A stretch of 55,113 nt of DNA. Source: Thiobacillus sp. 65-1402. GTDB taxonomy: Bacteria; Pseudomonadota; Gammaproteobacteria; Burkholderiales; Thiobacillaceae. The notes beneath the pieces were generated by a model. That model made no database searches, had not been told where the DNA came from, and worked only from the letters and a program-made list of their open reading frames with translations. This document shows, one piece after another, positions 37,701 to 55,113 of the stretch; position 1 is the stretch's first letter; each line of letters begins with the position of its first letter. Where the stretch lies: the NCBI RefSeq assembly GCF_001897685.1, contig NZ_MKUG01000072.1, positions 1 to 55,113 on the forward strand. The letters are read 5' to 3'. Made by a program: the position numbers and the translations under genes.

Positions 37701-40666
37701 CGCGCGCGCACAGTGACGTGGTTGTCTTCCTCATAAGAGGCCAGATAATGGTTGCGTCGGCGCATCGCCGCTCGCTCATCCGGGCCTATTTCTTCCACAT
37801 CGCCATGGCAATGAAATGCCGAGCACTTCCCCTTCAGCACATGCACTTGGCGCAATCCGCAACTCTTGCATATGTAAAGTGGGCGAACATCACCGTTTGC
37901 GACCCGCATGCTTTCTGCATCCAGAGCAAAGCCTGGGTTGTGCCTGACCAGCAGCGATACCGGAGGTTTGAGCAGGGCCTCCCAAAACTGCCGCAGAAAT
38001 GCGAAGGCCTGATCACGATCAAGCCCCAACTGCTCAGTCAGATACCAAGTGCGTCGGTTATGTCTCTTTTGGTTCTGCGCAGGTAACCACTTGTACATGA
38101 CCGAGTCATCACCGCTTTGAATGTCAAAGCTGCGGTGTTGGTTGTAGTCACCCCATGTAAACGAATCCCGAAGGTCCACGCCATAAAACTTGGCCAAGGC
38201 CTTTTCCCGTCGGAAGTTTTCCAGCAAGAAGTGAATCAAAGCCTCGATACAGGCTTCATCCTTGGGTAGTTCCGCCGGCCAGAATCCAAGCACCTTCTGG
38301 CGTAAGGTACGTAGGCGACTAGCCTCATAGGTAATATACGCCACCCCCAAGGACTCCAGCGAGTTGCGCCTGCCCGCAGGGGTGCAGAATTCAGCGCCAA
38401 TAGCGCCTAATAACAGGCTCGCCACGTCCTGGCGATCAGTGCGTATATCGCCGTTAGCATCCAATAAAATGGGTTGGCGACCATCACGTTGCCATTGTTG
38501 ATAAATCTGTTCGGCCAATTGCCGAGCATCAAGAGGCTCCGCGCGTTCCTTAAGCACTTGGCGGATGGCACTGCGCAAAGCTAGATCTGCTGCTGTTCGC
38601 TCGAAATAAGGGGCAAAGAAAGCCGCATCCTGGCGGTTGTCCGAGAACGAAAGCAAGCTGCGTCCCTGTGCCGGGCGTGGATCGCTGTGGTCGATCTCGC
38701 TGCCAGGAAGCGCTTCCAGAACCCGTTGGGTAACCACGCTGCCAAGGGCCTCATTGCCAGGATGCATGCGGGTAACGATTTCCGCCTCCGCACCCGAAGC
38801 GCGGCCGCCGCAGGCAGGACACTTGCGCACATACCACGCTTTCTCTTCTTCATCCTTGTCTGTCTGAATGGCATAGAGTGCAATGGAGCCTTCTCCGGCG
38901 GCCAACTCCCCCGTAAGCGGGTTAAGCCAGTGACGCGCGTATTGGTTTGGAGCAGCCTCGTCGGCTTCATCCTCCTCGTCATCCACATGGTCAGTTGGTT
39001 TACCCAGCCAGAACACGCGACGCTCGGCTTTGGCATCAGCCAAATCCGGGCGACGATGGTGCAGTCTCCCGCCTTCCTCGAATCCCTCCATGTATGGCTG
39101 ACCACACTTGCGGCAAACCAGGAGTGGATAGAAATAACCGTGCTGACGATCGTGATGGTGGCGAGCAACCTTGATGTCCTGCCAACCTTCGCCCTCACTA
39201 TCGGGCCGGACAGCAATGCCTTCGATCCCATTTACAGCGATGTGATAGCGCCCGGGGAGCAACGGGAAGCTCTCATCATCGGAACGCGCCATCATGCCCA
39301 TGCGGATCACCGCACTAAGCGCCTGATAGCGCTCGCCATCAGTCAAGGAATCAGCCGGTGAATCGAACACGCGCTCCGATAACTCGCGGAAGTCTTTGAC
39401 CCCGGCTTGATCAAGTTCACTGGCTACCCTCCGAATTTCCCGGTTTGAAGAAAAACGTTCTTCGAGAAAAGGACCAAGCGGCAGGCTAACCGGACCCTTA
39501 AATTCTGGGCGAGACAGCTCATGCATCTCAAGGTAGTCATTCCAGGTATCTGTTGAGCGGTCCTGCTCAGGTAGGCGCGCCACCTCTTCAAGAACCTTGC
39601 CGAGGCTTATCCAGTCTGGTCCCGTGAGGGCAAATTCATCCTTTATAGGTTGCTGCAAGCGCTCATGCACGATGCGCTTACCGCGCACCACCTCATGCAC
39701 TTCCTCAGCGAACAACGCACGTGCAAACACCTTGAGCTTGTCATCTGCATCCGGCCCATCCGCCAAGCTGGCGCTGGTGCCAAAAACCTGTAGTGGGGTT
39801 TCCAGGCCCAACCGGGTTTTTAACTTGCGCAAAAGAAACGCCACTTCCGTTGCCTGCGCACCGCTGTAGGTGTGGATCTCGTCCAATACAACGGTATGCA
39901 AGGCATTGGCAGAAAAAAGCCGGGCATTACGCGGCAACAGGAGCAGGTGCTCCAGCATGGCGTAGTTGGTGATCAGCACTTTGGGCGGATCGTTCAGCAT
40001 CTCTTCTCGGGTGAGCCGCCAGTTGGCCGGGATGTGATCCGGGTCGCCCAAGGCACGCATCAACTTCTGGTTGTTGAAGAGACGGTTTTCTTCCTCGTTA
40101 CGTTTGGTGTTCGCCTTCACCTGCCCGGTATAGCGCCCGAAGGTGATGCCGTGGTCCTTCAGGTAGCGCCCGAACAGCGGGGCAATGCGGTAGTAAAGCT
40201 GGTCATTGGCCAGCGCGTTCATGGGGTAGATCAGCAGTGCCCTTACACCGGGTTTTTCGGGTTCAGGGTCGGAAAGCAAGGCGTGGGCGATTGGATAGAG
40301 AAAGGTTTCCGTTTTGCCGCTGCCTGTGCCGGTTGCCACCAGCAGGCTCTTGCCGTCCCGGACGGCGAATTCAATCGCACGTTGCTGATGCAGGTGCAAA
40401 CGGCGCGAAGCGGTGGGCAAGCCAGCCAAGGCATCGTGAAGAAAACCGCCCTGACCTTGGGTGAGTTCTGCAAGGGTATTCCCCTTCTCAAAGTCGGGTA
40501 GCGCTTCAACATAGGGTCCTTCAACCAGATGCTGATTGGAGAGTTCAGTACGAAAACGCTCGGCCAAGCGAGGGTAACGACGGCTGACCGGCAGCGTGGT
40601 GGCGATATAGCGCTCCAGAACAGTCTTCAGTTCCTCAACCAGAGCAATGGGGTTGGCTTCACTCAT
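34736..40666 (-). CDS. druE: Very large DEAD/DEAH helicase with DUF1998 and MIT_C-like C-terminus (DruE-like)
   Basis: ATGTGSGKTETFLYPI (Walker A), VVLDEIHTYSG, QRTGRAGRRAQ, DUF1998 Cys cluster CPAHCDSGCRSCLCDYGNQRYWDGFERLAALEWLDALL; 1976 aa; paired with a ~1140-aa upstream gene as in Druantia type III. Confidence 0.72.
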   Translation of the reverse strand: MSEANPIALVEELKTVLERYIATTLPVSRRYPRLAERFRTELSNQHLVEGPYVEALPDFEKGNTLAELTQGQGGFLHDALAGLPTASRRLHLHQQRAIEFAVRDGKSLLVATGTGSGKTETFLYPIAHALLSDPEPEKPGVRALLIYPMNALANDQLYYRIAPLFGRYLKDHGITFGRYTGQVKANTKRNEEENRLFNNQKLMRALGDPDHIPANWRLTREEMLNDPPKVLITNYAMLEHLLLLPRNARLFSANALHTVVLDEIHTYSGAQATEVAFLLRKLKTRLGLETPLQVFGTSASLADGPDADDKLKVFARALFAEEVHEVVRGKRIVHERLQQPIKDEFALTGPDWISLGKVLEEVARLPEQDRSTDTWNDYLEMHELSRPEFKGPVSLPLGPFLEERFSSNREIRRVASELDQAGVKDFRELSERVFDSPADSLTDGERYQALSAVIRMGMMARSDDESFPLLPGRYHIAVNGIEGIAVRPDSEGEGWQDIKVARHHHDRQHGYFYPLLVCRKCGQPYMEGFEEGGRLHHRRPDLADAKAERRVFWLGKPTDHVDDEEDEADEAAPNQYARHWLNPLTGELAAGEGSIALYAIQTDKDEEEKAWYVRKCPACGGRASGAEAEIVTRMHPGNEALGSVVTQRVLEALPGSEIDHSDPRPAQGRSLLSFSDNRQDAAFFAPYFERTAADLALRSAIRQVLKERAEPLDARQLAEQIYQQWQRDGRQPILLDANGDIRTDRQDVASLLLGAIGAEFCTPAGRRNSLESLGVAYITYEASRLRTLRQKVLGFWPAELPKDEACIEALIHFLLENFRREKALAKFYGVDLRDSFTWGDYNQHRSFDIQSGDDSVMYKWLPAQNQKRHNRRTWYLTEQLGLDRDQAFAFLRQFWEALLKPPVSLLVRHNPGFALDAESMRVANGDVRPLYICKSCGLRQVHVLKGKCSAFHCHGDVEEIGPDERAAMRRRNHYLASYEEDNHVTVRAREHTASLSTDLRESIEKDFSEGRINVLSCTTTMEMGVDLGDLEAVINLNVPPGIANYQQRTGRAGRRAQAAPFCVTSARNTNYDQSVFRDFSRYLGSQPGTPFIHLDNPELFWRHQQSVLLAHYLRQKILEQDINAPSLKHLFGEVFGQDDLRAFIDALMQWIESDAGKDATKEAEALRMRLPESLRHIGASGEGLTQRFLSNLREFAEVVKERCGKYTKKMTESATAGDYKKAGYWQRMREDYMGQFLVSQLSSRGLIPTYSFPVHSLSLEVTQERQQKGQGWGSTDVALSRDASQGISEYAPGAEVVANGRIWTSRGLAHYPKAFMPERWYVACPECFHVDIADAKDELPPACSNCGSIDGRRKRMFIEPHGFVTSYAERKGRDTGGSRRRVKAADEARLIASPRDDAFNDTDLPFLRTALLNAHEREADALRGTMFIANRGVYSEGYFRCKLCNFAGPINPAGPSKPAKGKKGEPAGNVMQLVHDDPMTGLRCRNEQISRFGLDFVHRFDTDVRLFRFLQPLPSPKEGEGTPRRFHERMARTVSEALRLAVIDLLQLQPSEVRATYRLYGSIGNTLEIVLYDAVPGGAGYCARIGEAGFSFDILLRKARERLDCPAHCDSGCRSCLCDYGNQRYWDGFERLAALEWLDALLDPSAAQTGPGSYVRWATPSHAGLNERLANYEQVYLVARSLVETSGYSDDSLNLLLKWLQAGKTVHVYLANKLDEKPKSQIPLAIYRHLYPYALEGRLRLYQIANADGPDWEQLPRVFAGTAVGMPVIRQHFAVQPLLESLIASPAETGVVDDELEQVIHKLIDTAIPYANDALRDGERMNMWDLHAGTRRDLKVIFAPVAGAYIKELMVRDPYCGLERNRKNLKQFLNEIKGLADTIEHVELHCKEGLDRDGDLEFRLDIERHVDDLITSIGIEKRDVTVAPMKGGGRTFHDREVDITTVSPDGCETTHRFFLTGGIDYLMNDRTETRVFYVTL

Positions 40667-40679
40667 TTATCTTCGTTCC

Positions 40680-43600
40680 TTAATCCAATTCTGCTTTCAG
40701 CGCCAACTCCCACAACAGGAGATAAAACCCGAACAGCCCCTCACCCAACTGCAGCAGATACGCCATCGAGGCTTTCGTCGCTGACTCATCCCGGAACGAC
40801 GCGAGGAAGTCATCTAGGACACCAGGCTCCCGGACCTCCATCCTGCAGACGTAGGCCATCCATGCGATCAGATGCGCCATGGTCGCCAGATTCTCGAAAC
40901 GCTGCGCATCATCCGCGCTTACTCCATCATCGCTGGGATATGGCCACGGTGTCAGATGCGGCGCGCACGCGCAGAAATGCCCCGGAGTCCCCCTCACGTC
41001 GAGGGCCGGATGGCGACGGTGGAATTCCTGGCACAAACCCAAGGCTTGGCCGCGATGAATATCGTTCCCCGCCAGCGAGCGGTCGTAGGCGTCTTCCAAT
41101 GCACGCAGCGCATGCCTGTAGTGAATCGGGCCCAGATAATCGCCCGGGCCAGGCATGAATGCGTCATCACTCAGGCGGTAGTGGCTTTCGGGTGCGTCCG
41201 TGTTGATCAGGGCCGCAGTGTAGGCATCGCATCTGAAGCCCTCCGGCTTGGCGCCCCGGGCAATCGCCGGAAAATTCCTGAACCCGGCAGCCGCACTCGT
41301 ATGCAGCAAGTCTCCAAACACGAAGGGGTACTCAGCGGAGACACTTGCCACGGCCCGCATCGCGCGGATCAGGGGATGGGGATTTTCGTTTACGACCCTG
41401 TAGGCATCGGCGGGCTGCGCGAAGAGCCCAGGAAGCTCAGCCGAGACCGCGACCTGGGGCAGCCAACTTGGCGAGGCATCTTCCGGTGGACGCATGGCGA
41501 CCATATCGGCCAAGGTAGGTAGCGCCTCGCCCTCACGTCCGCTCCACTTTTGAGTGAACGCTCTCCAGGCGTCCCCCAACCAGGAAATTTCTAGCCAGGC
41601 TTCCTGCGCGTAGCAACCCTGCAATGCGGCGTGAATTCGTTTCAGCAGCGCACATTTCGACTTGTCATCGAGTTCAGTGACCTGCGCCAGCCACTCTCTG
41701 GGTAGAAGCGGTTGCCCGGCCTCACCCCACAAGAGGCCTGCAGCGAATGCATCCTGCCGGCTATTCTGCACATGCCCCCAAATCCCCTTGATTTGAGCGT
41801 CGATATTGAACAACCACGCGCCAGCGGGCCAATAGTCCAGATTGAGGTACACATAGGCCACATAGCCGCCCTCGCTACCATCCACCACCATCAGGCGGGC
41901 CTGTCCAAAGCGGGTATTGATCAGTTCATCAGCGTTGGCCTGCAGGGTGAACATGTCGTCGTCATCGGATGTCAGCGACACGGCGCGCACTGCGGTGGCG
42001 TCCAAAGGCTCGGACACATGCAGACGCATCACAAACTGCCCGCCTCGATACTGTGCAGAAAATCCGCTCGCCTCATGAGGCTGGGTCAACCTGAGCAGAT
42101 CCAATGATGTTCCGGTCAACTCGTTTTCGTAGATCAGAATGCTTGATTGCGGTGTCAGGCGACTTGCAAGAAACGAAGCGGGGAGCAGTTTGGCTGGTTG
42201 GCGCGAGAAATCCACGCGCTGCGACCAATCGCCCAAGCGCAGATAGCCTGGGTCGCTGGCAATCACCACGATTTGCTTGTCCGATATGAGAGAAACCGTT
42301 TCGGTGCTTCCCAATGCGCGCCTGGAACGGCTACTTATGCCGCCCTCCGCAATGCTCTCCACTTCCACGAATACCCCGGGCACATTCCAGGTAAGGCTTT
42401 GCAGGCGGGCCTGGCTCAGCCCGAACACCAAGCGGACGCCTCGTGCGGACGCATCCTTCACAGCCAGGTCATCTCCCTTGCGCTCAAGGTTTTCGCCAAC
42501 TTCGAGCTTGAGGTTCTCTGGCCATTCCGAACAGCGGAAGCGCAGGCCGCGATTGATCTCTTGCAGGCCCAGCCAGAACAGACTGGCGGCACGCATCAGA
42601 ATCCGCGCTTCCCCGGTTCGCCGTAGTTCAGAGACCACTCGCATCAATCCAGGCTTCCAACCTGAAAGCGCTGCCAGATCGGATACGCTGACCGTGCATC
42701 GACCCTCCTCACCCAAATCAAGCGGCACGACCTGCGATTGGCCACTTTCACCGGGATTGAGCGTCAACTCATACTCGCCGTGCCCGATCCAATCGGCCGG
42801 CAACTGCACCTCCATGCCGACTGTTCCGAACAGAAACTCCACGCCTTCCTTGCTGGCCTGGACGTCGCCCTTCCAGGTAATTAGAGGCGTCGCCTCAGCC
42901 TGTATCTCCAGGCAAGCAGGGCCATTGCGGATTGCACCGACTTCCCCGGGGCCAAGCTGGAGCCGGAACAAGAACAGTCGCGGGTCTTCTGAGAGTTCCT
43001 CCACCTCATGATCTGCCGGCGCAAACCTGGACAGGACGCTGTACGCGCCGGGCGGGAGGATCAACGGTTCTCCTTGACCCAATTGACCGCGGGCAGCAAG
43101 TCGCCCCGTGTCCGCGAAAAGCAGCATGCGATTGCTCTTCTCGTCTTCCCACAGGCTTGCCTGCATCTTCTGCCCTGTAGACACGCAGTGCGCCTCAACC
43201 TTGCCTGGCAGAACCTTGCCCAGGGGGATGAAGCGGTCCTCTGCCTCAGTGCGATACATCCGGGTGGCGCCATCCACCTTCACCGACCATTCCTGTTCCT
43301 CGCCACCGGGGAAGAACACGCCGAGGCACCCATCCAGGAACACAACGCGGGGAAGAACGGCTCGCCTTATCGCGGTGGTGCCAGACCTGTCAAAGGCCTG
43401 CGCCATCGCCTTTTCAAGCGCATTGCCTGCTTCAACATTTTGGCCACCATTGGCATACACACGCAGAAACGTACGGGTGTAGTAGCCAAGACGATCAAGC
43501 TTCAAGGCGTCACGGGCAGTCTGACTGAAAGGCGGCCCCAAGCGCACATCAAGCGCCGCCTGCCAGGTCGCTATACCTTCCGGATCGTCGTCATCGGGCA

Positions 43601-44111
43601 AGCCCACCCTTTTGGCAAAGACCAGCATCCGCTCAGCCAGGTCATCCACAAAAGGAAGCGGCACACCAGCTTGCCTCACATACTCGTCCGCCATGAAATG
43701 CGGCCCGGATGTACGCGGAGAGGGCTCAAGCCCTAAATTGAGCAGGGAGCGGCGGAACGCCCTCCAAAGTGGTTCCCGCTCCCCATGGCCAAGCTCATCG
43801 CACATGCCCAAGGCTTTGCGGACGTGTGGATAGAGGGAGAATTTCCCGCCCTGTCCCATACCATGCATGACGTGCCAGGCCAGATAGACTGCGAACAAAG
43901 CCGGATGAGACTCGAGACGTGCGACGTAGCCGGAGGGCGTCGGATTGGCTGCGATGGCTCGGTCGATGGCATCACGCATTTCCCTTGTAAGGGCTTCACC
44001 GAGCAAGCCCAGAAAGGGAGCGTCACTTTCTCGGATCGCTTTATTTACAGCTTTCTCAGACTGGGTAAGCCAGAGCCATAGTCGAAGTGCTTCGCTATTT
44101 TGGGCGGTCAT
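40680..44111 (-). CDS. druH: Large protein without recognisable domain, DruH-like by size and context
   Basis: 1143 aa ORF ending 13 nt before the DUF1998 helicase; no motif recognised by eye. Confidence 0.55.
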   Translation of the reverse strand: MTAQNSEALRLWLWLTQSEKAVNKAIRESDAPFLGLLGEALTREMRDAIDRAIAANPTPSGYVARLESHPALFAVYLAWHVMHGMGQGGKFSLYPHVRKALGMCDELGHGEREPLWRAFRRSLLNLGLEPSPRTSGPHFMADEYVRQAGVPLPFVDDLAERMLVFAKRVGLPDDDDPEGIATWQAALDVRLGPPFSQTARDALKLDRLGYYTRTFLRVYANGGQNVEAGNALEKAMAQAFDRSGTTAIRRAVLPRVVFLDGCLGVFFPGGEEQEWSVKVDGATRMYRTEAEDRFIPLGKVLPGKVEAHCVSTGQKMQASLWEDEKSNRMLLFADTGRLAARGQLGQGEPLILPPGAYSVLSRFAPADHEVEELSEDPRLFLFRLQLGPGEVGAIRNGPACLEIQAEATPLITWKGDVQASKEGVEFLFGTVGMEVQLPADWIGHGEYELTLNPGESGQSQVVPLDLGEEGRCTVSVSDLAALSGWKPGLMRVVSELRRTGEARILMRAASLFWLGLQEINRGLRFRCSEWPENLKLEVGENLERKGDDLAVKDASARGVRLVFGLSQARLQSLTWNVPGVFVEVESIAEGGISSRSRRALGSTETVSLISDKQIVVIASDPGYLRLGDWSQRVDFSRQPAKLLPASFLASRLTPQSSILIYENELTGTSLDLLRLTQPHEASGFSAQYRGGQFVMRLHVSEPLDATAVRAVSLTSDDDDMFTLQANADELINTRFGQARLMVVDGSEGGYVAYVYLNLDYWPAGAWLFNIDAQIKGIWGHVQNSRQDAFAAGLLWGEAGQPLLPREWLAQVTELDDKSKCALLKRIHAALQGCYAQEAWLEISWLGDAWRAFTQKWSGREGEALPTLADMVAMRPPEDASPSWLPQVAVSAELPGLFAQPADAYRVVNENPHPLIRAMRAVASVSAEYPFVFGDLLHTSAAAGFRNFPAIARGAKPEGFRCDAYTAALINTDAPESHYRLSDDAFMPGPGDYLGPIHYRHALRALEDAYDRSLAGNDIHRGQALGLCQEFHRRHPALDVRGTPGHFCACAPHLTPWPYPSDDGVSADDAQRFENLATMAHLIAWMAYVCRMEVREPGVLDDFLASFRDESATKASMAYLLQLGEGLFGFYLLLWELALKAELD

Positions 44112-44151: not shown

Positions 44152-45252
44152 TCATATCTTGAGTTGGTGAATGGGATTCCTGAGAACCTTCTCGAATCGG
44201 ATCATGCCGTCGATCATCCGGTCTTGAAGCTCGGTCCATTCGCCCTCGGGGGTGCGCCAACCACCATCCTGGTCATAATTGATCCTGCACCCCTTCCGGC
44301 CCGGCAGTTCCTCCCATGACAAAGGCGCACCGAAAGCCTGCTCAATTGAGTCCTTCTGGCTCTTGAGCTGCTCCAATGCTTTCAGATTCCACTCATCAGG
44401 TTCCTTGTCATTGCGAATATAGATCTCTACCCGTGCACGGTTCTCAGTAAGGGTCAGGTTCAGGGAGAACCCATATCGCCCGATTCCCGCCGATAGCCAG
44501 TGATCGGTTGTGGTGCTTCGGTTGGCGAGAAGCGATGTCTTCGGCTTGGAGCGATCGATCAGCTGGGCCCAAAACCTGCGGAAGATTTCCTGTCGTGCGG
44601 TCTGAACCTTCTTCGCCTCCTGCTCCTTGCCTCGGATCTTGACCTCATAATCCGCTGCCTCGGGCAAGGGAATAATTTGAACGGTGTCGATCAGCAGTGT
44701 TTCACCCAACTTGTATGGCTTCAAACGCACACAGGTAATGTCCAGATCATGCTTGTTCAACCAGATGACCGCCGTGGTCAGCTCGGAGGAAAAATCGGCG
44801 GAGACAAGGATGATGCGAACGTCCTTCGTGAGCTCGACATCGTCAACAGAGTCCTCCTCTAGGAACTCAAGAATGTCCTTGGTTGCTCTAGCTTCGGCAT
44901 CGTCTCCACCCAGATATTTGGCATAGGTGGAAATGGCCTGGTCCAGTGTCATGCTGGACACCATGGCGGCATAGCGAATCGCTTGCAGCTCCATGTGGCC
45001 ACCATCCTCTGTTCTCTTGAGTTCAACAACAACAAGCCGCGCCTGCTTGTCCAAGCAGAGCAGATCGATACGGCGCTTGCTGTCCTCCCAATTGCCGTAC
45101 TCCTCCGCGATGACCATCAGGTCATCTCCCAGCGGAGAAATGTCAGCCTTTAGAAGTTGCTGCAGATCCCTGCGCTCAAACACGCGCTCTTCCGTGAACG
45201 AGGTGGCCTGAACAGCCTCCAACCTGCCGTTTTGTACTTTGTATAGCGGCAT
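44152..45252 (-). CDS. PD-(D/E)XK-type nuclease-like protein with DUF4268-like C-terminus
   Basis: RRIDLLCLDKQARLVVVELKRTEDGGHMELQAIRYAAMV fits D...ExK; C-terminal FWAQLIDRSK...AGIGRYGFSLNLTLTENRARVEIYI. Confidence 0.65.
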   Translation of the reverse strand: MPLYKVQNGRLEAVQATSFTEERVFERRDLQQLLKADISPLGDDLMVIAEEYGNWEDSKRRIDLLCLDKQARLVVVELKRTEDGGHMELQAIRYAAMVSSMTLDQAISTYAKYLGGDDAEARATKDILEFLEEDSVDDVELTKDVRIILVSADFSSELTTAVIWLNKHDLDITCVRLKPYKLGETLLIDTVQIIPLPEAADYEVKIRGKEQEAKKVQTARQEIFRRFWAQLIDRSKPKTSLLANRSTTTDHWLSAGIGRYGFSLNLTLTENRARVEIYIRNDKEPDEWNLKALEQLKSQKDSIEQAFGAPLSWEELPGRKGCRINYDQDGGWRTPEGEWTELQDRMIDGMIRFEKVLRNPIHQLKI

Positions 45253-45274
45253 TTTTCTCCTCACTAGCCTCTGG

Positions 45275-46276
45275 TTAAGTTGTTATCACCGCCTCTTTTG
45301 CCGCTGCGTGCGCCCGGAGCTCATCTTCAACCCGCTTAAAACCCGTCACTACTTCACCTGTCTTAAAAGTCGCCGTTGATCGCTCAGAAGCGAACGCCCC
45401 TTCAAACACCTGCAGACCTATCCCGATTTCCCAAACGTAATTTTCGAACCGTACAAACCGATCATGCGACACACCAGAAAACGTCGAATTGGGTAACATC
45501 ACGACTTTGATTCGTCCCACTTTTTTTCGCGGCAGTTTGCCTAGCAATTGGCGAATTTCCTCCTCAACGTCGGGCAATAAACGCCCCTTGAGTTCCTCTG
45601 TCCACCCAGAGTAGAGGGTTACATGACGGGGGCCACATGCATCCGCATCCAATAAGCGCAGGAAACGTTCCAACCCGGAAAGTTGCGTTTGAGGACAGGT
45701 GACGTGCCGAGACATCGCGTATCGATCAACGATTGATACGCGTTTGATTGGAATGCCAGCCAGCAACTGAAAGCGGAGTGTCCAAATGTCACTGAACTTG
45801 TCGCCAACCTCGATATAAGCACCTGACTTGGCGATTGCTTTTTTGAAAGACGCAGCCTGAGAAGCCGATTGCAGACGGCACACCTCAACATCCGGAGCGT
45901 TGGCGGCACGGATAGTCAGGTCATATTCAGACATACCAAACTCGACTTCTGCCCGCGCGTCATCAACCAACGCCACGCTAGCGTGATTGCTTAGGGCACC
46001 GACGCTGCTGGCAATCACGCTTCCATTCCAACCATTTCTGCACGCGCGCAGAGGGAGCCGCTCCACCATCTCCATCCAAAGCGGCCTGATTTTTTGCGGC
46101 AACTTATCTATCGCGCTCTTAAGCCGAGAGGTTTCGAAATCATGAGAGTCGTATTCAAGCAAGCCGATACGCTGCCACGTATCAATAAGGCCCTCGTGGC
46201 AGGTGCGCACATGTGCTGGCAGCCAGGCAGGGTCGGGCGCAAGGCTGTCGGCATCGATAACAAAAGGAACCAACAT
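45275..46276 (-). CDS. Uncharacterised protein with MIT_C/PLD-like C-terminal motif
   Basis: KRVSIVDRYAMSRH... and SHDRFVRFENYVWEIGIGLQVFEG, resembling HDREIRFxNGWxIxIGxGLxxF of MIT_C. Confidence 0.45.
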   Translation of the reverse strand: MLVPFVIDADSLAPDPAWLPAHVRTCHEGLIDTWQRIGLLEYDSHDFETSRLKSAIDKLPQKIRPLWMEMVERLPLRACRNGWNGSVIASSVGALSNHASVALVDDARAEVEFGMSEYDLTIRAANAPDVEVCRLQSASQAASFKKAIAKSGAYIEVGDKFSDIWTLRFQLLAGIPIKRVSIVDRYAMSRHVTCPQTQLSGLERFLRLLDADACGPRHVTLYSGWTEELKGRLLPDVEEEIRQLLGKLPRKKVGRIKVVMLPNSTFSGVSHDRFVRFENYVWEIGIGLQVFEGAFASERSTATFKTGEVVTGFKRVEDELRAHAAAKEAVITT

Positions 46277-46278
46277 CC

Positions 46279-48486
46279 TCAGCGTCCCGAGAATTTCTCA
46301 CGAAAAGATTCTTCAAAGAATCCCCCAGGCCATTCATCGATGAAGTCTCCATCTTCATCAAGCTGCAATTCAGTGAACTTGCTTCCACTTGATGAGGGCT
46401 CAACGTATACGACACCAATATCTTCCGGCTTTACCTTTCCCTCTCGAATCCGGCGCATTAGACGAAGGATCAAATGCTCGCTGTGTGTTTCAAGAATAAA
46501 AGTATTCTTGCGATCGCCGAATGCGGCCTCAATAAATACATCCCCAAGCTCAGCCTGAAGCGCAGGATGTAAATGGATCTCGGGTTGCTCCATGGCGATG
46601 AGCCTGTTCTTGGATGCGTAGGCTGTAACCAGAACCGGCAGCACCTGCGATATCCCGATACCAACATCACGGTGGGTAACAGAAGTATTTTTCAAGATAT
46701 CTACGAGCTTAAGCTCTGTCACTCGTTCGATGTCAGCCTGCGAAATCTCATTCATGAAGAGCTCTACTGGGAGATTAGAGTCTTCCCATATCCCCAGATT
46801 AGATGGGGAGCTTTCGACATCTAAATGGCCCGCAAGATCATTTTCTTGCTTAGCCAACAGCTCAACGCGCCGAAATTTTTCTATTTGCTCCTCACGTAAA
46901 GCGACCTGCTGCTTCGCCTTCTCCAAGTCATTTTTTGCTTTGTTTATTGCATGAAGGAGTTGCTTCAACGCTTTCTGCCGCGTTCGATCGTCGACTTCGC
47001 CTGCCTGACGCTTCGTCCTCGCCGCTTCAAATGTCTTTATTCGATCTCTTGCGCTCTTGATGTCCTCATCAGTCACTCTAACCAGATCATGCAATCCGCG
47101 TTTTATCTGGTCATCTCTTCTTTCCGACAACATAACAAGCTGCAATTTGATGTCGTCAAGCGCCCTCGCTCTGGCTACATCAATTTTTAAATTCGTGCGC
47201 TCTATTACGCTGTCATCTGCAAGAAGACGTTCATACTGCATCTGTAGTGCAGCATAACTTCTCTCAGCCTCTTCGTACGCACGATATGCCTCCTCTCGTG
47301 TTTCCTCCAATGGCTCAATCATGGTGTCAAGCATCAAATTGATAGGCAGGTTCACGCTCGCGCGTTTGATTTTCCATAAGGCTTCCTCAATCGGACCTGA
47401 TAGGTCTGAAAGGGCAGCCATAGGCTGTACGACCAGTCTATAAGGGGTCTTTAGTTTTGCAGACCCCAGCCAGGCATTAACCGCTTCTCGCACGGACTCA
47501 TCACGCCGGACCACATCCCACGCGTAACCTCCACCCGCATACCAGTTAGCATCTTCGTGCTCGGAAAAGGCCAGATGGCGCGGAGGGAAAGAACGCAGCG
47601 GACCGAGATACTGCAACTGTTTCATCTCTTCCGACAGCGCTTCAGAAATGCCTTTGACCAGATCATTCAGCGTGCGTGGAAGATAAAAACGCACTGCCTG
47701 GGCAATATCTTCCTTTCGGTTCCCTCTGCTTATAGGAAACAATGCGTTAACGGGAGATAGGTCTACCCCTTCAATATTCGGCAACTCCACACCGGATGGA
47801 AAAAACTGCTCGACGCGAATCAGCAGTTGCGGCAGCAAATCGGCGATGGCTTCATTTGCCCCATCGAAATCCTCAGGCCTCATCTCCTCTGACGTTGTCG
47901 CCGACTCGACGATCGCCTTGAGCACCTGGCGAAACACCTGATGATCGCTGGCGATTCGGTCAAGCCGCAGCGTGCTTCCCTGGCTATCTGTGCGCCGTCT
48001 GCTCATTCGCATCAACTCGACGTCATCGCCAGTTATTTCAATGGATTCGACACGTGGTCCAGCACCTGATTTGGGCCGGTCCAAATCGTCCAACTCGATC
48101 CCTAAGGAGATGTTCAGTGCCACCCTGCTTACAGGTGCCAGTAATTGTGCAAGACGCTTATCCTTGCCCTCCGCTAGTGCTGCTACTGACAATTCCGCTC
48201 CCCACTCAACGCGTTTTCGCACCTGGCCTCGGTGTACATACTGCCTGAAGCCGCCCAGGTCGATCGCGCTACCGCCGACGTCGGTGTGGTGCACATCGAG
48301 CCGAGTCAGGCTGCGCTTCTCACGGCCGAATTGCGCTTCGTGGGCCAGCGCCAAGCTGTGGATGAAGCTGGACTTGCCCGCGCTGTTGGGACCGAAGATC
48401 AGCGTGATGGGCTTGAGCGGGATCGTCTGGGTGTCGGCAAAGGCTTTGAAATTACCCACGCGCAGGGCAGTCAGGCTACGACTCAT
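46279..48486 (-). CDS. AAA15/OLD-like ABC ATPase, DUF3696-type
   Basis: LRVGNFKAFADTQTIPLKPITLIFGPNSAGKSSFIHSL (Walker A), MEQPEIHLHPALQ (Walker B), FILETHSEHLILRLMRRI, C-terminal DEDGDFIDEWPGGFFEE. Confidence 0.85.
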   Translation of the reverse strand: MSRSLTALRVGNFKAFADTQTIPLKPITLIFGPNSAGKSSFIHSLALAHEAQFGREKRSLTRLDVHHTDVGGSAIDLGGFRQYVHRGQVRKRVEWGAELSVAALAEGKDKRLAQLLAPVSRVALNISLGIELDDLDRPKSGAGPRVESIEITGDDVELMRMSRRRTDSQGSTLRLDRIASDHQVFRQVLKAIVESATTSEEMRPEDFDGANEAIADLLPQLLIRVEQFFPSGVELPNIEGVDLSPVNALFPISRGNRKEDIAQAVRFYLPRTLNDLVKGISEALSEEMKQLQYLGPLRSFPPRHLAFSEHEDANWYAGGGYAWDVVRRDESVREAVNAWLGSAKLKTPYRLVVQPMAALSDLSGPIEEALWKIKRASVNLPINLMLDTMIEPLEETREEAYRAYEEAERSYAALQMQYERLLADDSVIERTNLKIDVARARALDDIKLQLVMLSERRDDQIKRGLHDLVRVTDEDIKSARDRIKTFEAARTKRQAGEVDDRTRQKALKQLLHAINKAKNDLEKAKQQVALREEQIEKFRRVELLAKQENDLAGHLDVESSPSNLGIWEDSNLPVELFMNEISQADIERVTELKLVDILKNTSVTHRDVGIGISQVLPVLVTAYASKNRLIAMEQPEIHLHPALQAELGDVFIEAAFGDRKNTFILETHSEHLILRLMRRIREGKVKPEDIGVVYVEPSSSGSKFTELQLDEDGDFIDEWPGGFFEESFREKFSGR

Positions 48487-49760
48487 GGCTGGGCCTCCAA
48501 TTCTCTAGGCAACGGCAGATTGAGAGTGCGGGCCTGCTGCGCCATCTCGGCTAGCAATTCCTTCATGTGCGCCTCACGCCATTTGGCTGTGAGTTGGCCG
48601 GAAAATGCTTTCCGTAGAAGTAGCGAGAACAACGTATCGATTTGCGCCGATGCACGCTCGCGATCCCCCTTAAAACCTAACAGGCCCTTCAGGTTTGCGG
48701 CAAATCCGTTCTGCAAAGCGTGCGGGGGTCTGGGAACCTGCAGCGACAAAAAGCGCGGGCCATCGATGTTGTGAACAGTCGCACCTTTCTTCACACAACT
48801 CAATGCCAGGCTTTGCCCGGTCACCAGCCAGCCATAAAGAAACTCATTTGACACTTCACGTCGACTGTTCAATGCCTTCAAGTCTTGGTTAAGGGTCAGC
48901 GAACGGCCGGCGATAGCGACCGGAAAGGTGTGAGCCAGAATACCGGATCGGTAAACGATCAAAATGCTGCCAGGCTCAACGAGCTTGGTTGCGCTGTTCG
49001 CAATAGCTGCATTCGTGATGTGATCTTCAGTGTCCTCAATGACGTCTGACTTCATGTCCTTTGGGGAGACCCAAGGAATATCCCCTTGCCAGTAATCCGG
49101 AACAGCCTTGGAGGGCGTCCCCCCGCCGAACACATCAAACAGAACATCAAGCCTTTCTGTGGGCCACCCCTTCGGATTCGTTGCCGGATCGCCGAACATC
49201 TTGAGGAACAGTACGGGCAGGATGCGGCCGGCCTTGACCTCAGCCTCGCGGCGCAGGAGACGCAGACGGTAGGCTTCGTCGAGTAGGTCGATGATTCGAG
49301 ATTGCTCCTTGGGGGAAGCCAACGGCAACGGAGCACGCCTGACCACACCATCGGTGACGGCCGGGTAACTAGCCCCTGTGGCATTCGAGACGAGGTACTC
49401 AATGAACTCACGACTCTGAACCCAATAGAAAAGGTACTTGGGATTCAACAGGACGGGGTTCGCTCGCAAAACAGAGAACCCAGTCGAGGCGACTTCTCCA
49501 TCGAGGTCATCAGAAACGAGAGCCACTGCATTCAGATTTGGCCTGACGGTCGAGACAAGTACATCCGATGTTTGAATGATCTTTCTGGCTCGGCTGGGCG
49601 CTTCGGCACACGGCAACGCCTCCGCACGCGAAATTATTTTGGAGTCACGGTCTACTCCAGCAATATCGACATAACGAAAGGTCGACGCTCCGCTGCGTGC
49701 TGGGTCGGCTTGCAGAGTTGGCAGGCAGACGTCCCCTAAAGGGGCGGTTAGCCAATTCAT
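48483..49760 (-). CDS. hsdS: Type I restriction-modification specificity subunit
   Basis: Two TRD-like halves; PLPLASPKEQSRIIDLLDEAYRLRL conserved region; GDIPWVSPKDMKSDVIEDTEDHIT. Confidence 0.92.
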   Translation of the reverse strand: MNWLTAPLGDVCLPTLQADPARSGASTFRYVDIAGVDRDSKIISRAEALPCAEAPSRARKIIQTSDVLVSTVRPNLNAVALVSDDLDGEVASTGFSVLRANPVLLNPKYLFYWVQSREFIEYLVSNATGASYPAVTDGVVRRAPLPLASPKEQSRIIDLLDEAYRLRLLRREAEVKAGRILPVLFLKMFGDPATNPKGWPTERLDVLFDVFGGGTPSKAVPDYWQGDIPWVSPKDMKSDVIEDTEDHITNAAIANSATKLVEPGSILIVYRSGILAHTFPVAIAGRSLTLNQDLKALNSRREVSNEFLYGWLVTGQSLALSCVKKGATVHNIDGPRFLSLQVPRPPHALQNGFAANLKGLLGFKGDRERASAQIDTLFSLLLRKAFSGQLTAKWREAHMKELLAEMAQQARTLNLPLPRELEAQP

Positions 49761-51412
49761 ATTTCCAACTCCGCCAGCAGTTTTTCCAACCCCGCCACCA
49801 CCTTACGGTAGTCCCCCAGCACCTCGGTAACCAACTCACGCGGATCTTCGTCGCTGGCCTTCTCCGCCACACGCGGCTTCCACTGGCCGGCGCCCAGATT
49901 GTAGTCGGCCTCGGCCAGCCGTTCGCGGGTCGCCCACCAGCAGGTCGGTTCTTCGCTGCCGTGGGCCAACAATGTGTTGGCCTCCAGCCCAGGAGGCGTG
50001 GTGAAACCGCTGGCCTTGTATGCTTTCCATCGTGTCAGCAGATCGGGAATATCGTTCTTCTCCGGCGTTTCCACGCGGCCACCTCCGGAAATCTTGTCCG
50101 GGTCGTAGCCGTCGTTGCGAACCTCGTAGAACCAGACTTTGTCCAGCCGCTTCGCGGATTCGGAAGCCGGTTTGCGGAAGACCAGAACGGCAGTCTTAAC
50201 GCCCGCGTAAGGCTTGAACGCGCCCGCAGGCAGGCTGACGACAGCGAGCAGATCGAAGTCGTGCACCAGGCTCTTGCGCAGCTCCACGTGTGCGCCAGTG
50301 GAACCGAACAGCACACCCTCGGGTACCACCACTGCGCAGCGGCCACCGGGAGCCAGATGCTGCATCATCAGCGAGAGGAATAGCAGTTCGCTCTTCTTGC
50401 TATTGGTGGGCAAATCTGCACGGATGGAGTCCTTGGGCAACTGGCCGGCAAACGGCGGGTTGGCCAGAATAACCTTGTAGCGGCGGCGCAGATCGTCTTC
50501 GGTGAGGCCGCCCATGTCCGACAGCGAATTCGCGCGCTTGAGCTTGGCGTGGCGGACGCCATGCAGCACGAGGTTCATCATGCTGATGCGCACCATCTGG
50601 CGCGACACGTCGGTACCGAATACCGACGCTTCCAGCAGGCTCCAGTCCGGAATCTTCTCGCCTGCACCCTTACGGTAGGTTTGCAGGCGAGGAATCTCTG
50701 CCTTCAACTCAGCCAGGGACTTGCCCTTTTTCTCCAACCAGTCCTCCCCGTAGATGGGGTATTCGCTGACGTGGTCGGAATACTTGGACAGCAGGTAGTC
50801 GACCGCGTCGATCAGAAAGCCGGCCGTGCCCATAGCCGGGTCGAATAGGGAATCCCCGATATCCGGGTCTACCATCTCGACCATGAAGGCGCGAATCTGG
50901 CGCGGCGTACGGAACTGGCCGTTGAGCGAGCTGGAGCCTAGATGCACCAGCAGGTATTCGAAGATGTCACCCTTTACATCCGGGCCGAGCTTGCGGAATT
51001 CGAAGCCGTCCAGTTCGTCGATGACTTGCTTCAGCACGTTGGGGTCGACGATTTCGAGCACCGCATCACGGAAGTACTCGGCCACCTCAGGCTCGTCCTT
51101 GGCGAGGGAAGACATGTAGGGGAAGACTTCATCCCTGATGAAATCCCGCAGGTCGGTGCCGCTCTTGAAGCGCCAGTGGCTCCAGCGGTAGCGCTCCGAT
51201 TGAGCCGGGAACAGCAGCTTGGCGTTGCCGTGGGTGCTGGCTTTGCCGTCATTCAATCGAATGCGTAGTTCACGGTCGCTTTCCTCCTCATCTAGCAACT
51301 TAAGGAAGATGAGGTAGGAAATCTGCTCGATGTAAGTGACCGGATTGGTGACACCACCCGCCCAGAGGATGTTGGTGATGTGATCGAGCTTGCGTCGTAG
51401 TTGTTGGTTCAA
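49757..51412 (-). CDS. hsdM: Type I restriction-modification methyltransferase
   Basis: LDHITNILWAGGVTNPVTYIEQISYLIFLKLLDEEES; DPAMGTAGFLIDA; NPPFAGQLP. Confidence 0.95.
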   Translation of the reverse strand: MNQQLRRKLDHITNILWAGGVTNPVTYIEQISYLIFLKLLDEEESDRELRIRLNDGKASTHGNAKLLFPAQSERYRWSHWRFKSGTDLRDFIRDEVFPYMSSLAKDEPEVAEYFRDAVLEIVDPNVLKQVIDELDGFEFRKLGPDVKGDIFEYLLVHLGSSSLNGQFRTPRQIRAFMVEMVDPDIGDSLFDPAMGTAGFLIDAVDYLLSKYSDHVSEYPIYGEDWLEKKGKSLAELKAEIPRLQTYRKGAGEKIPDWSLLEASVFGTDVSRQMVRISMMNLVLHGVRHAKLKRANSLSDMGGLTEDDLRRRYKVILANPPFAGQLPKDSIRADLPTNSKKSELLFLSLMMQHLAPGGRCAVVVPEGVLFGSTGAHVELRKSLVHDFDLLAVVSLPAGAFKPYAGVKTAVLVFRKPASESAKRLDKVWFYEVRNDGYDPDKISGGGRVETPEKNDIPDLLTRWKAYKASGFTTPPGLEANTLLAHGSEEPTCWWATRERLAEADYNLGAGQWKPRVAEKASDEDPRELVTEVLGDYRKVVAGLEKLLAELEI

Positions 51413-51429: not shown

Positions 51430-53694
51430 TCAGGCAACCAGCACGGACTGGTTGATTTCATCCAGCATGGTCTTTAGCCCCTGCTCACCGAACAACTCGA
51501 TGCCGATGTTGGCAGCGTTCAGGATGGACAAGGGCGGGGCAAACAAGTCGTCTAGCGAGACTTTGCCTTTGACGAGACCACGGTTCTTGAGCAATGCGAG
51601 GTATTGCGCCTGTTCGGGCGCAAGGTTCTTGGCAACCAGCCATGCACGGAAGTTCTCATCCACGCGTTCTTCACGGCTCTTGATCTTGAGTATGCCTAGG
51701 GCATGGCGAATAAAGTCCACCAAATTGCCGCCCGGGTTACGGTAGGCACGGCGCAAGTTGTCTTCGTTGAAATAGCGCTGTGGCTGGTTAAGGTGTTGGG
51801 CGAGAGCGGTTTCTTCCTGCTCAGTCAACGGCTCGCCAGATCTCACCTTGGCGATGACCGGGTCGCTATCGGCCTCCTGCTGAATAGTCTGCTCCCACTC
51901 CATCACGTAGTCGCGTTTGTCGACTCTCTCACCGTCAGGGCCTACTTCGATGTAGTGAACGGCGTCGAGCCATTCGTCTTCCAGACCGAGTTCAATTAGC
52001 TCACGAGGTGTCTTGGGGCCACCTTGCGGTGGTTTCGTCGCGTAACCTCCCCCACCGCTTCCAGAGAAGACATCGCTGTCCGAATCGTTGAAATACTCGT
52101 GATTGCGAAAAAAGTCGTAAATGACAAACTTCTCTTTGCCGATATGCGGTGCGGTACGGGTGCCACGGCCACGCATTTGCTGGTAAAGGATAGGGCTGCG
52201 CACACGGCGGCACATCACCAAATGCAGAATCTCACGGCAATCAAAGCCAGTGTCGAGCATGCCGACGCTCACTGCAACCTGTGGCAAAGCTTCCTGCTTG
52301 AATCGGCGGATCATGTCGTCAGCATTGGCAACATCAGAAGTAATGACTTCGGCGTAACCCCCCTTGTGCTCGGGGTGCAGGTCATTGAGGTATTGCGCCA
52401 GACGCGCAGCGTGGTGCTTGGTAATCGCAAACACCACTGCCTTGCCGGGGCCGGTTTTCTGCCCGGGAGCCAGTCCCTTGAAGCTTGACCAGGCGAGACG
52501 ATCGAACTCCTCCATCATCAGACGGTTGCTGGCCTCGTTGGTCCACTTGCGTTCGAACTCGGACGGGTCATAGTGCTCGTCGTCTACGTTCGCTCCTTCT
52601 GACACCAATGCGGTGATTCCGGTAGCGAACTTGTAGGGGGCGAGAAACCCCTCCTTGAATGCTTCTTGGATGGGATACGAGTAATCGGGCGCATCGTCCT
52701 TGCAGTGATAGAACTGAAACGTGTTGCGCTCGATGTAAATTGCCGGCGTAGCGGTCAGACCAATGTGCAGGGCATCAAAATAGGACAGAGCAGTCTGCCA
52801 CGTACCGTAGATGGATCGATGACATTCGTCCATCACGACGCCATCAAAGTAGCCACTGGTGAATTCCTGGTAGCGGCCAATCATGGTCTGCAAAAGGCAA
52901 ACGGTAATCTGTTTTTCCTGCCGTACCATCCCGGGCTTGAGCCAGTAGCTCGAATACCCGGGCAATAAATCTTGAATGGCTTCAATGGCCTGCTTGGCAA
53001 GTTGGTCACGGTCGACAAGGAACAGAATGCGCTCGGCATGGCCCGCCTGAATCAGGCGCTTGATGTAGAGCACGATCAGATCCGTCTTGCCGCAGCCCGT
53101 GGGCAGCTCGATGAGGAACCGGCGCTTGCCCAGTTCGACCGTGCGATCCAGGGCCTGCATCGCTTCCTTCTGGTAAGGACGCAGCGTACGAGTCTCACCT
53201 TGTCGCAAGTAGGTGTCAGGAATCGGAATAGTGGCCAGCGGCAGGCGCTCGGCGCGCATGTGAACCAGCCGTTCAAGATCACGGCGCGAGAAGAAGGAGT
53301 TGACGATGCGGGCGTCGTCATTCTGGTAGTCCCAGAAATAGATGAGCTCGCCGTTGGTGAGAAAGATAAAGGGCGCACCGATCTGCTTCGCATAGGGCAA
53401 GGCCTGCTGCTTGGCGACGTAGGGATGGATAGCCTGCTTCTTGGCTTCGACCACCGCTAATGGCCGGCCGCGTTGGTCGAGTAGCACGTAGTCGGCCCGA
53501 CCCAAAAGTCCGGCTTCATAACTTGCCGTGGAGAGGATGGTGGCTTGTGAGCCCGACTCAGCTACTTCATATGCTGAGCCAGTCACTTTGACTTCAGTCA
53601 ACACCTGCGACTTGTCCGCCGGATTCCAACCGGCCGCACGCAACTGATCATCGATCAGGATACGAGCGTCAGTTTCTTTGGTCCGGTCGGTCAA
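51430..53694 (-). CDS. hsdR: Type I restriction endonuclease/helicase subunit
   Basis: ADYVLLDQRGRPLAVVEAKK nuclease core; LPTGCGKTDLIVLYIKRLI; VVMDECHRSIYGTWQTAL; GMLDTGFDCREILHLVMCRRVRSPILYQQMRGRGTR. TTG start at 53694. Confidence 0.93.
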   Translation of the reverse strand: MTDRTKETDARILIDDQLRAAGWNPADKSQVLTEVKVTGSAYEVAESGSQATILSTASYEAGLLGRADYVLLDQRGRPLAVVEAKKQAIHPYVAKQQALPYAKQIGAPFIFLTNGELIYFWDYQNDDARIVNSFFSRRDLERLVHMRAERLPLATIPIPDTYLRQGETRTLRPYQKEAMQALDRTVELGKRRFLIELPTGCGKTDLIVLYIKRLIQAGHAERILFLVDRDQLAKQAIEAIQDLLPGYSSYWLKPGMVRQEKQITVCLLQTMIGRYQEFTSGYFDGVVMDECHRSIYGTWQTALSYFDALHIGLTATPAIYIERNTFQFYHCKDDAPDYSYPIQEAFKEGFLAPYKFATGITALVSEGANVDDEHYDPSEFERKWTNEASNRLMMEEFDRLAWSSFKGLAPGQKTGPGKAVVFAITKHHAARLAQYLNDLHPEHKGGYAEVITSDVANADDMIRRFKQEALPQVAVSVGMLDTGFDCREILHLVMCRRVRSPILYQQMRGRGTRTAPHIGKEKFVIYDFFRNHEYFNDSDSDVFSGSGGGGYATKPPQGGPKTPRELIELGLEDEWLDAVHYIEVGPDGERVDKRDYVMEWEQTIQQEADSDPVIAKVRSGEPLTEQEETALAQHLNQPQRYFNEDNLRRAYRNPGGNLVDFIRHALGILKIKSREERVDENFRAWLVAKNLAPEQAQYLALLKNRGLVKGKVSLDDLFAPPLSILNAANIGIELFGEQGLKTMLDEINQSVLVA

Positions 53695-53744
53695 TTTGAA
53701 AAATCTCTGTGGCGGTAGGAAAAGAATTCAAGCATGAACTTGTC

Positions 53745-53760
53745 AGCATGATATGTGCCA
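53745..53760 (-). promoter_or_regulatory. Sigma-54 (-24/-12) promoter upstream of hsdR
   Basis: Minus strand TGGCACATATCATGCT vs consensus TGGCACRNNNNTTGCW: one mismatch, GG/GC spacing correct. Confidence 0.72.
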
Positions 53761-53761
53761 G

Positions 53762-54442
53762 CTAATTTGAAATCCCGTAGCGTTTCATCCAGTTCGTTAA
53801 AGTCTGATAATTGGGAAGGCCAAGTATACGTGTCGCCTGCGCCTTGTTGCCGTGTGCGGCAGACAGGGCTCTGCTGAGGTAATGCCTTGCCACCTCCGCG
53901 ATGAGTCCTTGCAGGTCAACGCCTTCCTCAATGGGGCGGTCGAGGATGGTGTCGTGCTGTCCCTCGGCAGGCCCCAGGTCCAGAATGGAATCCTTCATGG
54001 TCGCAGCGCTGATGGCTTCCTCGTCGCTGCTCACGGTAGCCCGGTAAAGGGTGTTCTGCAGCTCGCGTACATTACCCGGCCAAACATGCTCAAGCATAAT
54101 ATTTTTTGCGGAAGCAGAAATTTTCTTATTAAATGGCTTGCCGTCTTTGGCGGCTTCCGAATTGATCCTGCTCATCAGCCTGTCGATCAGCAAGGATAGG
54201 TCGCCAGAACGCTCCCTTATGGGGGGCAACTTAAGGATGGCTACAGCAAGCCGGAAAAACAGATCCTCGCGGAAATTCCCTACTGCGACCTCCTTGGTCA
54301 GGCTGCGGTTGGTGGCGGCAATGATTCGCACATCAACTTTTCTGGGCGCGCTATCACCGACGCGGACAATCTCGCCCTCCTGTAGGGCGCGCAACAATTT
54401 GACCTGAACAGGTTTGGGCAACTCGCCGATTTCGTCCAGGAA
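53762..54442 (-). pseudogene. Sigma-54-dependent activator, 5' truncated by Tn3-family insertion
   Basis: FLDEIGELPKPVQVKLLRALQEGEIVRVGDSAPRKVDVRIIAATNR...FREDLFFRLAV...HVWPGNVRELQN, Fis-type HTH NKAQATRILGLPNYQTLTNWMKRYGI; reading frame starts exactly at the insertion boundary. Confidence 0.9.
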
Positions 54443-55113
54443 GGGGTCTCCTCGTTTTCAGTGCAATAAGTGACGGTACGCAAAGCTAGCACTGGCGCGG
54501 GGGTGGTCTGGGTAGACCGTTGATTTCATTGACTTTCCTGTTCGCTTTGTAAACGGGTATGGTGGCCTCCCACTTTTGAGGTTCACGATGCAGGGTTGGC
54601 ACACAACGTTTTTGGGGATGCGTGGGCTCCCCCGCGATATCAGCGACTTCGAGATGAAGGCATTTTTCACCTTCGATGGTGCCGAGCGCGACGCAATCAA
54701 TGCACGCCGAGGTGATTCCCACAAGCTTGGTCTGGCGCTCCATATTGGTTTCCTGCGCATGAGTGGGCGTTTGCTCGGTGCCTTTCGGGTAATTCCAGTA
54801 GCCTTGTGGCGCCACCTTGGCAACGAGCTTGGCATTGCAGCACCAGAAGTCGCCTCGCTGAGAGCCATGTATGAACGCGGGCGCACGCTATTCGATCACC
54901 AACAAGTAGCCTGCACGGTCCTTGGATTCCAGTGGATGAGCGAGCACCAGCGCCGCTCACTGGTACGTGAACTGCGCGACGAAGTGGCGCGCTGCGCCGA
55001 CCGCGATCAGCTACTCGTGCGGGCGCGTCAATGGCTGTACAAGAACAAGCTGGTGATCGTGCACGAGCGGGCAATTCGGACACTGATTGCGGCGGCACTT
55101 GCCCAGCTTGAAG
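54443..55113 (+). mobile_element. IS1071-like Tn3-family element (left end, runs off right edge)
   Basis: Terminal sequence GGGGTCTCCTCGTTTTCAGTGCAATAAGTGACGGTACGCAAAGC and adjacent transposase start, as I recall for IS1071. Confidence 0.85.
54588..55113 (+). CDS. tnpA: Tn3-family transposase TnpA, N-terminal part (incomplete at window end)
   Basis: MQGWHTTFLGMRGLPRDISDFEMKAFFTFDGAERDAINARRGDSHKLGLALHIGFLRMSGRLLGAFRVIP...; open to the last base, hence absent from the ORF track. Confidence 0.88.
   Translation, partial: MQGWHTTFLGMRGLPRDISDFEMKAFFTFDGAERDAINARRGDSHKLGLALHIGFLRMSGRLLGAFRVIPVALWRHLGNELGIAAPEVASLRAMYERGRTLFDHQQVACTVLGFQWMSEHQRRSLVRELRDEVARCADRDQLLVRARQWLYKNKLVIVHERAIRTLIAAALAQLE

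Follow-up and report, generated by a model that had tools for sequence, protein, structure and literature searches.

The DNA analysed here (the window, 55,113 nucleotides of contig C72) probably carries an infection-inducible defence operon whose switch has been cut by IS1071. The intact switch would be an enhancer-binding protein of 506 aa with a CARF-AAA+-HTH layout. The analysis shows two halves of a single gene with a matching target duplication, the CARF fold, the rpoN gene, a conserved position of the promoter, and conservation of the operon partners. An initial annotation of the window had proposed that a sigma-54 promoter and a dedicated activator control the operon, and this interpretation is supported by the strong conservation of the −24/−12 element in relatives.

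The 3′ part of the activator gene, encoding the protein from Walker B onward with the AAA+ lid and a Fis-type HTH, was located at 53762–54442 on the minus strand. It is truncated at 54442, and the left end of IS1071 (Tn3 family), GGGGTCTCC, begins at 54443 and continues on the plus strand with the start of tnpA (from about 54576) to 55113. This part of the window shares 99.6–100% identity with IS1071 copies on many plasmids. A profile search of the strain's own genome revealed the missing 5′ half at the start of contig C30 (minus strand, positions 499–1343 of locus L009), against the other IS1071 end. Inverted-repeat ends were found on both C72 and C30, and the 5-bp target duplication AGGAA was present on both sides, at 54438–54442 and at L009 499–503 on C30, adjoining the respective ends. 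The flanks joined at the empty site read GGTLFLDEIGEL, giving one 506-aa frame with an unbroken Walker B region and the duplication AGGAA. The assembly consists of 222 contigs with 9% estimated contamination, and the matched halves and the duplication strongly support the inferred join of C72 to C30. The Tn3-family end at 54443, which had been suspected to break the activator, was thus confirmed as IS1071, with the other half of the gene on C30. Walker A and the sigma-54-contacting loop are missing from the fragment in the window, as are the lid and HTH from that on C30. Neither half should be able to activate transcription, judging from what is known of enhancer-binding proteins. An intact activator acting in trans, a possibility raised in the initial annotation, was looked for in the strain's genome, and the two halves but no second or intact copy were present in the assembly. 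One rpoN gene, which transcription from a sigma-54 promoter requires along with an activator, was found in the genome.

Both halves of the regulator matched PADLOC model PDLC01995 (RtcR_PspF2--CARF_AAA_HTH) end to end, with E values of 1.7e-107 (positions 2–267) and 1.9e-90 (positions 265–480). Pfam analysis of the halves identified PF00158 (positions 1–99 and 95–166), the AAA lid, and HTH_8, a Fis-type HTH; across the empty site, the sigma-54 AAA+ domain and the C-terminal HTH are encoded in one frame and belong to the same protein. The N-terminal CARF domain was recognised from the PADLOC match and from the AlphaFold model of an ortholog. The top 23 solved-structure matches of the ortholog's N-terminal domain model (pLDDT 84) were all CARF proteins, comprising Csm6, ring nuclease and its relatives, Can2, Card1, Cad1, and Cdn1. 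The N-terminal sensory domain, marked for inspection in the initial annotation, is therefore a CARF domain encoded on contig C30. Its SPGTPAM motif corresponds to a nearly invariant loop of the CARF regulators. RtcR family members mostly lack the positively charged residue that is kept after strand 4 in other CARF families, and different ligands have been proposed for them (PMC4012209); the SPGTPAM loop appears consistent with this missing residue. The regulator was not assigned to the RtcR equivalog of NCBIfam, its halves scoring 171.6 and 171.7 bits against a cut-off of 650, and its neighbours are restriction-modification (R-M) genes, not rtcBA.

The predicted sigma-54 (−24/−12) promoter TGGCACATATCATGCT lies at 53745–53760 on the minus strand, 1 nt past the stop of the activator fragment (53762) and 50 nt ahead of the hsdR start codon (53694), with a predicted transcription start at about 53734. 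Sigma-54 promoters were defined by GG and GC with 10 bp between them and the sequence TGGCAC-N5-TTGCW. The core of the element has one mismatch, a −12 box ATGC for TTGC, with correct GG-N10-GC spacing, as initially annotated, and the element is kept in relatives. The pattern TGGCACNNNNNNTGCW had this element as its single match in the 55-kb window. Since 0.40 matches are expected per window, the element would be weak by its sequence, and its significance comes from its position between the activator stop and hsdR. The score of TGGCACATATCATGCT was reached by 3 of 5504 segments of 85 bp covering the whole 55-kb window, and all three cover the element. A consensus scan of 53600–54700, including the regulator-hsdR gap, detected no sigma-70-like promoter, the kind of transcription start that the initial annotation had considered a possible objection.

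Plasmids, GTDB genomes, and viral contigs were searched for relatives by the CARF domain, and conservation was assessed in the 78 loci that had a full-length regulator and sufficient flanking sequence. A −24/−12 element was found within −5 to +30 nt of the regulator stop in 60 of these 78 relatives, at distance 0 in half of them (30 of 60). The conservation in orthologous loci, on which the initial annotation had made its proposal depend, is thus strong. The T, G, G, and A of the −24 box were invariant in the 60 sites, which were selected by score. Strong sites numbered 101 in 2.9 Mb (both strands), and 45 of them were within −5 to +30 nt of the stop, compared with 0.06 expected. The site was absent from the canonical place in 18 of the 78 relatives, some of which instead had a site just within the gene, about 100 nt downstream, or in divergent orientation. 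The loci belong, according to record titles, to Desulfobacterota, Myxococcota, Planctomycetota, Acidobacteriota, Gemmatimonadota, Magnetococcales, Gammaproteobacteria, and others, and those with the promoter span both HsdR families and several cargo types. All four of the nearest hsdR homologues (G432, G420, G046, and the Gemmatimonadota locus L107; 77–89% identity) were preceded by a CARF activator with a strong site in the regulator-hsdR gap. The first five genes in G432 follow the window's order, and P. luteola has a CARF activator and hsdRMS followed by DruH-DruE. Two hsdR homologues without such a regulator, a small control (n = 2), had no comparable site in the preceding 300 bp, where the best scores were 24 and 22.

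Several loci deviated from the common pattern. TTGA replaces TTGC as the −12 box at the regulator stop in L062, L090, L102, L105, L109, and L111, which are mainly myxobacterial. The same type of regulator heads CoCoNuT-like VWA-PP2C-kinase-AAA-DUF2357 operons on Rhodoferax and Polaromonas plasmids (L027 and L029). On the Azotobacter plasmid pAcX50d (L030), the CARF activator is intact and the hsdR and hsdM genes behind it look broken, the reverse of the situation in the window.

The operon itself, originally annotated as having eight genes, consists of eight contiguous minus-strand genes with intact frames and gaps or overlaps of −4 to +40 nt. It begins with hsdR, encoding a type I restriction subunit of the EcoAI/EcoEI type (51430–53694), hsdM, encoding an N6-adenine methylase (49757–51412), and hsdS, encoding the specificity subunit (48483–49760). 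Each of the three was matched by Pfam, PADLOC, and NCBIfam, which identifies a type I R-M system. The following genes encode an AAA_15/OLD-like ATPase (46279–48486), which recurs after hsdS in many relatives; a 333-aa protein with no assigned family (45275–46276), the order of which is kept in G432 (53%); a DUF4268 protein corresponding to PADLOC candidate PDC-S11 (44152–45264); a 1143-aa protein (40680–44111); and a DruE-like helicase with an MrfA Zn-binding domain (34736–40666). The helicase was identified as DruE by PADLOC scores of 579 bits (DruE1) and 556 bits (DruE3).

Sigma-54 sites were also found on the other side of the regulator. Across the relatives' loci, the region upstream of the regulator has a cluster of 16 strong sites on the minus strand, and a divergent −24/−12 element was present in about 20 loci, mostly within 130 nt of an open frame. 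L064 and L079 have a divergent site and none behind the stop, and their Druantia genes are divergent: the promoter follows the cargo. A frequent divergent partner (L062, L082, L105, L107, L109, and L111) is a family of about 561 aa that is coiled-coil-like, with a possible nuclease motif seen by eye and no PADLOC match. The present strain has a divergent sigma-54-like site, TGGCACGCCCTCTGCT, at positions 1465–1480 of L009 on C30 (plus strand), divergent from the regulator. Downstream of it are a 96-aa gene without a known family and then small proteins, a helicase, a weakly UDG-like protein, and an EcsC-like protein. Since no relatives of the 96-aa gene were found, the strain's own divergent promoter is proposed from its position and sequence.

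A palindrome, TACAAGA-N2-TCTTGTA, was detected at the 5′ end of the regulator gene, with at least 11 of 14 positions matched in 28 of 94 loci, compared with 1.3 in shuffles. In a re-anchored scan, 31 of 32 palindrome matches were centred 39–61 nt before the codon of a conserved W. Distances from the palindrome to the divergent GG clustered at 74–76, 94–97, and 126–129 bp. The best-fitting period was 10.5 bp, with Rayleigh p values of 1.6e-4 (15 loci) and 3e-3 (11 distinct distances), the significance of which is overstated by the relatedness of the loci. Such helical phasing, observed at the regulator start in L042, L108, L065, L103, and other palindrome-bearing loci, is as expected of an enhancer that is bound on a single helical face, and the palindrome in phase with the divergent site is a candidate enhancer of the CARF activators. 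The same candidate enhancer would act on the downstream promoter from about 1.5 kb. In the strain's own genome, the palindrome, at roughly the expected location, matched 9 of 14 positions, which is at chance level and not convincing, and it was absent from the near beta/gamma-proteobacterial group. The final 220 nt of the regulator gene, close to the downstream promoter, contain dyads that fit conserved HTH codons and were rejected as unconvincing enhancer candidates.

In the proposed mechanism, the CARF domain would sense a nucleotide or RNA signal of infection, and binding of the signal would free the AAA+ ring, which would then open the sigma-54 RNA polymerase waiting at the −24/−12 promoter behind the regulator stop. 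Transcription of hsdR-hsdM-hsdS and the five further genes would follow. The intact locus would thus most likely be quiet until the CARF domain is occupied and then produce HsdRMS, the ATPase, the three further proteins, and the DruE helicase together. The insertion would leave the operon off or weakly expressed. The operon is probably off in the present strain, and low expression could arise via other enhancer-binding proteins or undetected promoters; the initial description of the operon as silenced, leaky, or rewired by IS1071 is likewise a deduction from sequence.

Sufficient expression of the operon through such promoters or cross-activation, with little effect of the insertion, is a less likely alternative. 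About a dozen other complete sigma-54 activator domains are encoded in the genome, and the operon frames show no visible decay. However, the intact frames may merely reflect a recent insertion, cross-activation without a cognate enhancer is usually weak, the intergenic gaps are too short for most internal promoters, and the scan of 53600–54700 offers no sigma-70-like site. Rewiring by an outward promoter of IS1071 or by read-through is improbable. Insertion elements often rewire their neighbours, and the regulator fragment and operon directly adjoin the IS end, but no outward-reading sigma-70-like site was seen in the scanned stretch, and read-through from tnpA is unlikely because this gene reads away from the operon. 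The simple pattern, expected 0.40 times in the window, could also match by coincidence, with the operon under other regulation; the element keeps its position in many phyla, with two hsdR families and several types of cargo, which makes this very hard to believe.

A further alternative concerns the inserted element and is compatible with an infection-inducible operon whose switch has been cut. The genome contains exactly four IS1071 ends. C72 and C30 have one each, and the other two are on contig C3, where a cynR-cynT-cynS cargo (L127 1–2865) lies between left and right ends. A LysR regulator and a carbonic anhydrase were identified in this cargo by Pfam, and cyanase was named from a reading of the translation; the unit is likely a composite transposon for cyanate use. 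The orientation of the C3 ends fits the arrangement C72-IS1071-C3-IS1071-C30, and it is rather probable that this composite transposon (IS1071, cynR-cynT-cynS, IS1071), not a single IS1071, interrupts the regulator gene. Against this, no contig joins C72, C3, and C30, and C3 is possibly a small circle or located elsewhere in the genome.

Restriction-modification is usually regarded as immunity that is permanently in place. The sigma-54 promoter before hsdR, kept across phyla, points to a large class that is switched on by alarm. Because hsdR and hsdM share the promoter and hsdR comes first, the chromosome would still be unmethylated at induction unless protected by basal expression or other control, which makes the survival of an unmethylated host a puzzle. 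As a tentative joint reading, the CARF activator gene, the stop-fused sigma-54 promoter, the activator's own 5′ enhancer, and an optional divergent promoter might form a portable switch for infection, carried between phyla and placed before different weapons. Such a switch would restrict a normally always-on type I R-M system to infection; as hsdR would be transcribed ahead of hsdM while the chromosome is unmethylated, the system may act as an abortive defence. The insertion strain would be a natural knock-out of an infection-triggered defence switch and, with its intact relatives, provides a natural comparison; the fixed promoter and the candidate enhancer are exact targets for testing.

The arrangement is of a known, predicted kind, since CARF activators beside type I R-M and Druantia III have been described (PMC4012209, PMC11090510). 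CARF-NtrC-HTH proteins were noted beside R-M systems, with sigma-54 activation predicted (Makarova et al. 2014, PMC4012209), and RtcR homologues were reported to head operons of type I R-M, CoCoNuTs, and Druantia III (Bell et al. 2024, PMC11090510). The latter study refers to an upstream activating sequence solely by analogy with RtcR and does not mention −24/−12 elements. In the literature searched, which excluded most subscription papers, so that an earlier mention is possible, we found no account of a −24/−12 element at the regulator stop, of the divergent promoter, or of the palindrome, and no other report on sigma-54 promoters of defence operons.

RtcR of E. coli and Salmonella, the sigma-54 activator of rtcBA RNA repair, shares the CARF-AAA+-HTH layout, the sigma-54 dependence, and the location beside the target operon, whereas the targets here are defence genes and the promoter lies directly behind the regulator stop in the same direction. 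The RtcR_PspF2-type CARF regulators beside R-M systems (PMC4012209; PDLC01995) agree in being the best family match of both halves, in the R-M neighbourhood, and in the predicted sigma-54 activation downstream; that work named the association, and the present analysis adds the promoter element with its fixed position and a natural insertion mutant. The RtcR-headed superoperons (PMC11090510) similarly have type I R-M right after the CARF gene and a Druantia-type helicase last, all in one direction, but the window contains no recognised CoCoNuT genes and the partner of its DruE is not DruH. As in Druantia type III (DruH and DruE), a DruE-like helicase ends the operon and is preceded by a protein of about 1100 aa. 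The 1143-aa protein was nevertheless rejected as DruH, with no match to any PADLOC DruH model and no alignment with P. luteola DruH (hhalign probability 0.1%). Because this partner is not a recognisable DruH, the operon was not classified as Druantia III, and the initial label "Druantia-like" holds for DruE and fails for its partner. The same type of 1143-aa protein adjoins a DruE-like helicase in relatives L058, L079, and L112, possibly representing a further Druantia-like variant.
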